37,323 nt of DNA from Gemmatales bacterium (GTDB lineage Bacteria; Planctomycetota; Planctomycetia; Gemmatales; HRBIN36): NCBI GenBank assembly GCA_025056555.1, contig JANWVZ010000017.1, forward strand, positions 1 through 37,323, read 5' to 3'. The stretch's first letter is position 1. Each line of letters begins with the position of its first letter. Shown here in pieces: positions 3,115 through 21,151 of the stretch. The notes beneath the pieces are model-generated. The model was given only the letters and a program-made list of their open reading frames with translations. It had not been told where the DNA came from and did no database searches. A program made the position numbers and the translations under genes.

Positions 3115-3849
3115 ATGGACATTCGTGAGACGCTGCGCAGGAACTTGGAGAAGATCGAGGAACAAATTACGTCGGCCTGTGAGCAAGCGGGACGCGACCG
3201 GGGCGAGGTTACCCTGGTAGCAGTGACCAAATCGGTGAATATCGAGGTGGCCGCGGCATTGTTGGAATTGGGCGTGAGTAACCTGGGTGAGAGCCGACCG
3301 CAGGAGTTGTGGCGCAAAGCCGCAGCGCTACCCCAAGCACGTTGGCATCTGGTGGGCCATTTGCAACGCAATAAAGTCGCTCGCACTTTGCCCCTGGTGG
3401 TGCTCATTCACTCAGTGGATAGCGAACGCCTCCTACGTGCTCTCGAAGAGGAGGGCCGTGAACGTAACCGCGTCGCTGATGTGCTGCTGGAATTCAACCT
3501 GAGCGGGGAATCGTCGAAGCATGGTTTTGCCGCTGCCGATGAACCACGCCTGCCCGATGTATTGGCCGAAGTGCAGTACGTCCGCGTCAGGGGATTGATG
3601 ACGCTAGCGCCCCTGGGCACCGACCACGAAACTGCCCGTCCCACGTTCGCGCGGCTCCGCGAATTGCGCGACCGGTTAGCCATCCGCTTACTTGGTACGC
3701 CCCATACTCTGCATCATCTTTCGATGGGCATGAGTGGCGACTTTCGCGGCGCCATCCTGGAAGGCGCCACCCTGATACGCATCGGCACCGCTTTGTTTAC
3801 AGGCCTCCCCGACGTGTCCACCACTGAATTACCCAAATCGCTGGACTAA
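3115..3849 (+). CDS. yggS: YggS family pyridoxal phosphate homeostasis protein
   Basis: This 244-aa single-domain alanine-racemase-like PLP protein has no known catalytic activity in its family; homologues buffer free PLP and affect amino acid pools. The PLP-binding Lys lies in LVAVTKSV (about residue 39). Other family hallmarks are LGESRPQEL, WHLVGHLQRNK, GLMTLAPLG and the phosphate-binding end SMGMSGDFRGAILEGATLIRIG. The length matches the family. It follows the permease gene after 83 bases and could be cotranscribed with it, but no functional link is apparent. The start ATG is the first in frame and precedes the usual N-terminal helix. Confidence 0.95.
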   Translation: MDIRETLRRNLEKIEEQITSACEQAGRDRGEVTLVAVTKSVNIEVAAALLELGVSNLGESRPQELWRKAAALPQARWHLVGHLQRNKVARTLPLVVLIHSVDSERLLRALEEEGRERNRVADVLLEFNLSGESSKHGFAAADEPRLPDVLAEVQYVRVRGLMTLAPLGTDHETARPTFARLRELRDRLAIRLLGTPHTLHHLSMGMSGDFRGAILEGATLIRIGTALFTGLPDVSTTELPKSLD

Positions 3850-4639
3850 GCAATTCGCTGAGCAGCAGGAAGTGTGATATCGGAAAACATACGCACTTTC
3901 GACGAGCCGCGATTTGAAAGGAATTCAGGCGGCGAGGCGTTACGAAAACAATCCTGGCAGCCAGACGCTCTAGGGGAAACTGTAACTGTCCGCCTTAAAG
4001 CAGGATTGGCGACGGTTTGTAAAGAACCTGAAGGTCAGAGGCCCCAGTTGAAGCGTTCACGCTCTCCCCCGGAGGCGAAAAACCATATGCGCTTCCGGCG
4101 GAAAGCATGCAACCCGACGCGAGCAGCGAAGTCATTCCACGTGTTCATAGTTATGTCCAAGGTGCTGCCCAGGGAGAGTAGGTAACCGCTCGCCGTCGAT
4201 TTCTCATGACAGGCCAGGGAAGTTTGAAAGACTAAGGCATGCACGACATAGTCCTTGCGTGTGCTCAGGACAGAGCAATGCCCAGCACACGAAAACACGG
4301 CATCTGGCGCAGAGCCACGGGGCATGCCGCGACGTTGGCAAGACATTCCGTAGATCATACGGCAGCGGTGATCTGCAATGGAGCGCGTCCGCGATGCTCT
4401 CGAAAAATTCCGAACGAGCGCCAACACGATAGTTTCAAAAGGCTTGAACATCCCTGGGGCTAGCAGATATGATGCTCGCAAATGCCCAGGGACGGGGCGA
4501 TATCCTCTATCATCACTTCTGTTGCTCCCATGAGGCTGCATGTGGTGCTGGAACATGGGTGTTCTCGTCCAGAGGAATTCGCTCCCATAATTCATTGGGC
4601 AAGGAAAACTTTGCCCGATGTCAGACGACAGGTACTGCT
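3850..4639. other. Long intergenic stretch, no supported gene
   Basis: These 790 bases contain open frames on both strands, but none has a Shine-Dalgarno sequence, a recognisable domain or plausible residue composition. The one structure I see is an inverted repeat at 4451-4492, described separately. It may be the leader of the four-cysteine protein gene. Confidence 0.5.
4451..4492. repeat. Inverted repeat, 8-bp perfect arms
   Basis: TCCCTGGG at 4451-4458 pairs perfectly with CCCAGGGA at 4485-4492 across a 26-base loop. It lies about 150 bases upstream of the small four-cysteine gene and is not followed by a T-run, so it is not an obvious terminator. It could be chance or a regulatory hairpin. 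Confidence 0.3.
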
Positions 4640-19381: not shown

Positions 19382-20446
19382 TTAATGTGAGCCGCTGCGA
19401 ACGATTAGCCGACAGTTGTCCTGAGGGGGCAGAACTTCTCCGATGACGGCGGCCAGACAGCCCCCCCTCTCTAATCGCTCCACTAACTCGCTCAAGCGAG
19501 AAGGGGCCACAGCGATGAGCAGGCCCCCGGAGGTTTGGGCGTCGAAAAAGATCTCCAACCGAATCGGGTCAGGCTTACCTTCGAAACGTAGTCCCGGTTC
19601 GACGAAGCTGCGGTTGGTTTGGCTGGCACGGGTGAAGAATCTCCGCTCCACTAGCTCTTTCACCCCTGGCAAAAGAGGTAATCGGTCGAGGAAAATCACA
19701 AAAGTACACTGGCCGGCCTGGGCCATTTCGTAGGCGTGACCTGCCAAGCCAAAGCCGGTGATGTCAGTCATGGCGTGAGCCGCCACCGCTAATGCGGCCT
19801 GAGCCGCCTCGCGGTTTAGTTGAATCATGCTTTGAACTGCCGCCTTGTAAGTTGCTTCTGGGCACTTCTGGGCTTTATGGGCCGTTGTGACAAACCCCGT
19901 ACCCAGCGGCTTGGTCAGAACCAGCTGATCGCCGGGACGCACTCCTGCGTTGGTGATCACCTGCATCGGGTGGATAACGCCCAGCACCGAGAGGCCATAC
20001 TTGATTTCCCGGTCGCGCACCGTGTGGCCACCAATAATAACGCACCCCGCTTCTCGGCAGCGCTCCGCTCCACCGCGCAGGATTTCCTCCAGAATAGTCA
20101 GTGGCAACTCATCGTCGGGAAATCCGACAAGGTTGAGGGCCGTCTTAGGCGTGCCCCCCATGGCGTAAACGTCGCTCAAGGCATTGGCAGCCGCAATTTG
20201 GCCATACACAAACGGATCATCTACCACCGGCGGAAAGAAATCAAGCGTCTGCACAACGGCCAGGTCGTCGCTGAGACGATAGACGCCCGCATCATCAGCG
20301 GTGGCCGTGCCGACCAGGACGTTGGGATCGTTCACCTTCGGCAAATCACGCAGCACCTGCGTGAGGCCAGCGGCCGGCAGTTTTCCTGCTCACCCCGCGC
20401 AGCTGGCATAATCGGTCAGGCGCTTCTTTCGTCCAAAGCTCCACAT
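19382..20446 (-). CDS. selD: Selenide, water dikinase with selenocysteine active site (UGA at 20392-20390)
   Basis: SelD makes selenophosphate from selenide and ATP, the selenium donor for selenocysteine and selenouridine. The uninterrupted frame begins only at 20356 (MLRDLPK), lacking the catalytic N-terminus. Reading through the in-frame TGA restores it: start ATG 20446 (MWSFGRKKR), then LTDYASCAGUAGKLP. Sec19 and Lys22 have the spacing of E. coli Cys17 and Lys20. The product is 354 aa, full family length, with downstream motifs VGTATADDAGVY, TALNLVGFPDDELP, GGHTVRDREIKYGL, DITGFGLAGHA and DAQTSGGLL. A hairpin suited to a SECIS element follows the TGA. It lies 310 bases downstream of a SelW-like selenoprotein gene on the same strand. 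A Sec-containing SelD is known in several bacteria and in animal SPS2. Confidence 0.93.
20346..20364 (-). promoter_or_regulatory. Candidate bacterial SECIS element in selD
   Basis: On the minus strand UCACGCA-GGUGC-UGCGUGA forms a perfect 7-bp stem with a five-base loop containing GGU. The loop begins about 33 bases after the UGA. Bacterial SECIS elements are coding-region hairpins shortly 3' of the UGA with G/U in the apical loop, bound by SelB. The distance is toward the long end of the range I recall, and a smaller GGCC-GCU-GGCC hairpin lies between. Confidence 0.6.
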
Positions 20447-20756: not shown

Positions 20757-20996
20757 TTAAAGCCCAGCTCTTTTCTTCAGTTGCTCGACTACCCAGGACT
20801 CTTCTGGAAAACTGCCCGTTTGGAGCTTGGAGTGGAGCAGTTCGCCATTGACCGTGATCTCAAAGCAACCGCCGGTCCCTGGCACGAGCACAAATTCCTT
20901 CAGTTTATCCTTCAGGGCAGTGAGCACCTGGCTCGTCAGACTGACGGCCCGCGGTTCGTAGTTTCACTTATAGCAGTATTCAAGCCGTATCTTCAT
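20757..20996 (-). CDS. SelW/Rdx family selenoprotein with CxxU motif (UGA at 20966-20964)
   Basis: This 79-aa gene is missed by ordinary ORF calling because codon 11 is TGA. Read with Sec it gives MKIRLEYCYKUNYEPR, with the CxxU redox motif (Cys8, Sec11) after the first beta strand, exactly as in SelW-type thioredoxin-like proteins of the Rdx family. The later family features follow: LVPGTGGCFEITVNGELLHS and the GSFPEE turn. The start ATG 20996 has AGGAG eight bases upstream, and the frame is otherwise open to TAA at 20757. A hairpin with GUC in its loop follows the UGA. The family is thought to act in thiol/selenol redox reactions, but the partner is unknown. The neighbouring selD supports the reading. 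Confidence 0.9.
20930..20949 (-). promoter_or_regulatory. Candidate bacterial SECIS element in SelW-like gene
   Basis: On the minus strand GGC-CGUCA pairs with UGACG-(A)-GCC, an 8-bp stem with one bulged A and a GUC loop. The loop lies 23-25 bases after the UGA, within the usual distance for bacterial SECIS hairpins, and has the expected GU. Confidence 0.65.
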
Positions 20997-21151
20997 CCGT
21001 TTACTCCTTTCCAGAGGGTGCGTTTCGTCCCTTGTAGGGTGGTGTCACTGTTTCTTACTATTGTATCTTCGACATTATCCTGCCAAGGCAATAACACGAC
21101 TGCTAATTTTTTTGGAGGAAATCTCAACGCGGCGTAATTCGGCGGAAATGG

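Follow-up and report, generated by a model that had tools for sequence, protein, structure and literature searches.

A selenoprotein W-like (Rdx) gene with an in-frame UGA and a SECIS-like hairpin beside selD in a Gemmatales bacterium

Introduction

Selenoprotein W-like (SelW-like) proteins with a CxxU motif formed the most abundant selenoprotein family in the Sargasso Sea set, where bacterial SECIS elements were present (PMC1088965). Counts of SelW-like selenoproteins in genomes followed in 2006 (PMC1794560), and in the GOS marine samples these proteins were the most abundant (PMC2398784). Gemmata obscuriglobus and Isosphaera pallida are among the planctomycetes for which machinery for selenocysteine (Sec) was reported in 2016 (PMC4807772). 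The locus analyzed here lies in a stretch of 37,323 nt from a Gemmatales bacterium (contig JANWVZ010000017.1 of assembly GCA_025056555.1), hereafter the window. An earlier note, made from the letters alone, had proposed in it a SelW/Rdx-family selenoprotein gene that ordinary gene finding misses.

Results

The gene and its product

The SelW-like gene is on the minus strand (20757..20996), running from an ATG at 20996 to a TAA at 20757, and codes for 79 residues followed by the stop, with a single internal TGA as codon 11. Translation bears out the reading frame described in the earlier note, including the position of the TGA within the motif CYKU (20964..20966, minus strand), and gives the product MKIRLEYCYKUNYEPRAVSLTSQVLTALKDKLKEFVLVPGTGGCFEITVNGELLHSKLQTGSFPEESWVVEQLKKRAGL. 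An AGGAG ribosome-binding site is present upstream as had been claimed (21004..21008, minus strand), with a spacer of 7 nt before the ATG instead of the eight bases given then. The mechanical list of open reading frames is empty here on the minus strand. The gene assignment draws on the Rdx profile match, on selection past the TGA, and on the fold.

Family membership and fold

Read with C in place of U, the protein matches the Pfam family Rdx (PF10262) at 74.9 bits, against a cut-off of 22.6 (E 5.8e-21), and TIGR02174 (CXXU_selWTH) at 70.5 bits, against a cut-off of 34.2. An AlphaFold2 model, built from 42 aligned proteins of the window and the loci, has a mean pLDDT of 95.9 and the predicted order strand-helix-strand-strand-strand-helix, in which C8-Y-K-U11 lies at the junction between strand E2-8 and helix H14-31. 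Among the 42 relatives, C8, G42, G43, and F45 are invariant, and both the CxxU motif and the GGxF-type second half are present. A Foldseek search of the PDB places SelW-related proteins best (TM 0.86-0.90), mouse SelW and MIEN1 next, and then thioredoxins, while the solved relatives retrieved by sequence search are bacterial SelW-related proteins, MIEN1, and mouse SelW. Sequence score and predicted fold thus agree on membership of the Rdx family. In three alignments with solved relatives of the Cys form (3dex, 2fa8, 2ojl), a Cys occupies the position of U11. Motif and modeled fold together suggest that this member of the selenoprotein W (Rdx) family is a small redox protein.

Conservation of the TGA and selection beyond it

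A profile search finds Rdx in 81 of the 102 genomes of the same order. The 94 order-wide matches contain one in-frame TGA in 87 cases, two in three, and none in four, the last being a Cys paralog (L018), a Gly variant (L057), a frameshifted gene (L061, the first half of which does have the TGA), and a weak partial match in genome G052. Given the Pfam score and an in-frame TGA in 90 of these 94 matches, the locus is far beyond chance. Across the phylum, Rdx occurs in 143 of 392 genomes, with one TGA in all but 11 among the matches listed, and C-x-x-U is found in all 20 loci sampled elsewhere in the phylum. The objection that relatives might end at the TGA, or lack Sec or Cys there, which the earlier note had entertained, finds no footing: relatives keep the TGA, and none of those examined ends at it.

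The window protein is mostly 41-63% identical to its order relatives of the first subtype outside its own genus. Against the same-genus locus L039, dN is 0.097 and dS 1.43 (dN/dS about 0.07), and the codon differences located after the TGA are 29 synonymous and 11 nonsynonymous. This low ratio and the predominance of synonymous differences indicate that the part past the "stop" is under purifying selection. The TGA at 20966-20964 is almost certainly read as selenocysteine.

Several variants accompany this pattern. The Gly variant (L057:3966-4205, minus strand) has GGT at the Sec position and largely keeps the hairpin core GTCAGTTTG; it lies close to the end of a contig, in a genome that is 75% complete. 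At L061 (about 3757-3990, plus strand), in a single-contig genome, the Sec TGA is present and an apparent frameshift lies in mid-gene. The Cys-form Rdx at L018:1501-1770 (plus strand; CTMC, 111 bits) belongs to a different subtype, and its genome (G048) also has a Sec-form copy. A second Rdx subtype, with CTSUGYR, is found in several genera (L072, L089, L092, L093, L095, L034, L037, L041), often alongside a first-type copy in the same genome, and has its own compensated SECIS stem.

Relatives with two Sec codons

In three genomes (G037, G038, and G067), the first motif position is also TGA, giving UxxU. These genes lie at L058:3958-4200, L059:3947-4186, and L060:3993-4229, on the same contigs as L108, L109, and L107, respectively. 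The genes of G037 and G038 have diverged (dS about 0.52, dN about 0.07) and both TGAs are retained, while the gene of G067 hardly differs from that of a CxxU relative (L097), which points to a recent change or to an error. The pattern used for the UxxU scan was tuned to the sequence of this order, and more distant cases would escape it. A 2026 review gives SELENOW-like proteins only as CxxU, with one Sec (PMC13188914), and no report of UxxU in the SelW-like family was found in the literature available without subscription.

A hairpin downstream of the UGA

A bacterial SECIS-like hairpin is found at about 20930..20949 (minus strand), in agreement with the hairpin with GU in its loop that had been noticed after the UGA. 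Its apical loop, AGUCU, is closed by an A-U pair and contains a GU whose G is at loop position 2, and 21 nt separate the UGA from the loop. The bSECIS model of the 2026 review has an apical loop of 3-9 nt, an upper stem of 4-16 bp, 16-37 nt from the UGA to the loop, and, at loop position 1 or 2, a G that in most cases precedes G or U (PMC13188914). Compared on loop, stem, position of the G, and spacing, the hairpin fits this model, of which minimum free energy is a further criterion. A scan of the window with Rfam at gathering thresholds returned only tRNA-Thr, with no match to a SECIS family.

The hairpin is strongly conserved in relatives. The loop G and U are invariant, and at a fixed distance from the UGA (the loop starting after 21 nt), in all 64 TGA-containing sequences examined; the five inner stem pairs are all kept in 61 of these and four are kept in the other three. 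In the 61 aligned sequences, 90% of the cells of the 7-bp stem are paired, and for five of the seven pairs there is at least one relative in which both bases differ, with 20 two-sided change cells observed against 4.0 in shuffles. The covariation score of the stem is 0.245 (0.150 when shuffled, with none of 500 shuffles reaching the observed value), and covariation is lost when the pairing partners are slid out of register. RNAalifold, unaided, recovers the inner five pairs of the same stem. Coding constraint was controlled with a synonymous null, in which proteins were kept fixed and codons were redrawn 500 times by the codon usage of the window: the inner five pairs average 4.95 per sequence, against 3.23 in the recodings (maximum 3.58). 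For the hairpin of the window alone, one of 200 synonymous recodings folds equally well. The amino acids encoded by the stem shift together while the pairs are preserved, as in V-S-L-T, A-S-L-A, T-S-L-V, and L-S-L-R.

Selenocysteine machinery

All of selA, selB, and tRNA-Sec, on which the earlier note had made its reading depend, are present in the window's own genome, an assembly of 374 contigs that is 87.5% complete. The tRNA-Sec has anticodon TCA (75.5 bits with Infernal, with which ARAGORN agrees), selB scores 396 bits in a profile search, selA (566 bits) directly follows selB on contig C18, and selD (387 bits) is inside the window, downstream of the Rdx gene. Four genomes of the order (G040, G070, G078, and G083) have a TGA-containing Rdx gene without a detected selA, and three more have only a sub-threshold selA; most of these assemblies are incomplete. 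The association between presence of Rdx and of selA across the order is weak (Fisher p = 0.12) because nearly all of its genomes have selA, and this co-occurrence is not counted among the main lines of evidence. Two genomes of the same family, G100 and G101, have neither Rdx nor selA, as would be consistent with the Sec trait having been lost jointly in that family.

The selD neighborhood

The adjacency of selD was correctly recognized in the earlier note: the gene for selenide, water dikinase (19382..20446, minus strand) is on the same strand as the Rdx gene, 310 nt downstream. It has its own in-frame TGA (20392-20390, in SCAG-U-AGK), which explains why the list of open reading frames starts it about 30 codons late, at a GTG (20356). 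A hairpin with GGU also follows the TGA of selD. In the gap between the two genes there is one weak terminator-like match, at 20614-20597; the region has three terminator-like sites, where shuffled sequences average 1.2 (sd 1.1).

Within the order, selD lies closely downstream of Rdx on the same strand in 26 genomes. The distance from start to start is 243-550 nt in 25 of these, so that at the short end of this range one gene almost touches the next. The selD gene beside Rdx keeps Sec except at L065 and L071, which have Cys, and the match at L056 covers only the part past that position. No selD was found near any of the 20 loci elsewhere in the phylum. The Rdx gene is thus often next to selD in this order, and the two are possibly transcribed together. 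No report of a SelW-like gene adjoining selD was found in the nonsubscription literature.

Discussion

With the gene, its recoding signal, the machinery, the fold, and the conservation established by computation, we infer that SelB with Sec-tRNA-Sec, guided by the hairpin that follows the UGA at 20966-20964, would insert selenocysteine at residue 11. The locus is very probably a genuine SelW-like (Rdx) selenoprotein gene decoded in this way, as the Rdx profile match, the predicted fold, the Sec machinery, and the TGA kept in relatives all argue, in line with the identification first proposed for it. The product would be thioredoxin-like and 79 residues long, its C8-x-x-U11 redox motif set between strand 1 and helix 1, and most likely a small thiol/selenol oxidoreductase in which U11 provides the attacking selenol and C8 the resolving thiol.

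Other readings of the locus have to be weighed against this one. TGA is one base away from TGC and TGT, and the relatives include a frameshifted gene (L061) and a Gly variant (L057), so one might imagine a CxxC Rdx gene of the ordinary kind in which TGC had become TGA, whether as a pseudogene or through a sequencing error. The same TGA in 90 of 94 matches from many genera and in 20 of 20 loci elsewhere in the phylum, the purifying selection that persists past it, and a hairpin kept by compensatory change leave such a reading next to no probability; TGA conservation and the selection after the TGA lead us to reject it. If nonspecific read-through or a changed code placed tryptophan or some other standard amino acid at the UGA, a full-length protein would likewise result, and nothing specific favors such a decoding. 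This is very improbable in a genome with complete Sec machinery, where the UGA aligns with the redox Cys of solved relatives and is then followed by a hairpin of the SECIS model. The only open reading frame that the mechanical finder lists here is on the opposite strand (20781..21137, plus strand), and the true gene might be sought there. This frame has no Pfam match and is interrupted by an in-frame stop in the same-genus L039, whose similarity to it is essentially limited to the overlap with Rdx and ends at about the boundary of the Rdx gene. That it codes for a protein is therefore exceedingly unlikely; it is rejected as a real gene and, on the comparison of sequences, is a spurious antisense shadow of the Rdx gene, the false gene that the earlier note had taken it for.

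The selD neighborhood raises the different question of what a real selenoprotein would do. It might be mainly a selenium carrier or a partner of SelD rather than a general redox enzyme, considering that in 26 genomes of the order selD starts no more than about 550 bp after the start of Rdx, on the same strand, and that the 2026 review describes the donor system of SelD as incompletely known (PMC13188914). However, selD is near none of the 20 loci elsewhere in the phylum, the linkage is explicable by shared selenium dependence or by vertically inherited gene order, and in two relatives the selD beside Rdx is of the Cys form, so we regard this role as unlikely. Similarly doubtful is the bolder proposal that the Rdx and SelD selenoproteins form a dedicated unit, in which Rdx would reduce selenium or deliver it to SelD, and that some lineages upgraded the motif to UxxU, with a predicted diselenide. 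The oxidoreductase reading remains the preferred one, while the selD neighborhood and the UxxU variant provide testable leads on the role of bacterial SelW-type proteins.

Ordinary gene finding overlooks this gene throughout a whole lineage, and the identification puts that annotation right. Among the sampled Planctomycetota-type genomes, Rdx is nearly always of the Sec form and not of the Cys form. The tight conservation of the hairpin, with amino acid changes that keep the base pairs, would let it serve as a clear lineage model of the bacterial SECIS.

Comparison with known systems

The match to the Campylobacter SelT/SelW/SelH family (NF041051, the SelTWH_Campy equivalog) is significant (E 5.3e-20), yet its score of 71.5 is under the cut-off of 88, which places the window protein outside that narrower group. 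Mouse SelW and human MIEN1 (2npb, 2ljk), found by both sequence and structure, have the thioredoxin-like fold in common with the window protein but are distant from it (TM 0.75-0.77, 26-34% identity). In addition, the SECIS of eukaryotic SelW is in the 3′ UTR (PMC1088965), whereas the hairpin of the window is within the coding sequence. The Cys-form bacterial Rdx proteins (2fa8, 2obk, 3dex, 2p0g, 2oka, 2ojl) are the best structural matches (TM 0.86-0.90, rmsd 1.1-1.4); they have CxxC and no Sec, as alignments show for 3dex, 2fa8, and 2ojl, whereas the window protein has CxxU. With the bacterial SelW-like selenoproteins (PF10262), the window gene shares the CxxU motif, the Rdx domain, the in-frame UGA, and a bacterial SECIS directly downstream, and it differs from them in belonging to a planctomycete-type genome, in being often beside selD in its order, and in its strongly conserved AGU-loop hairpin. 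Bacterial SelW-like selenoproteins have been known since 2005, and the window gene is a well-supported addition to this established family.
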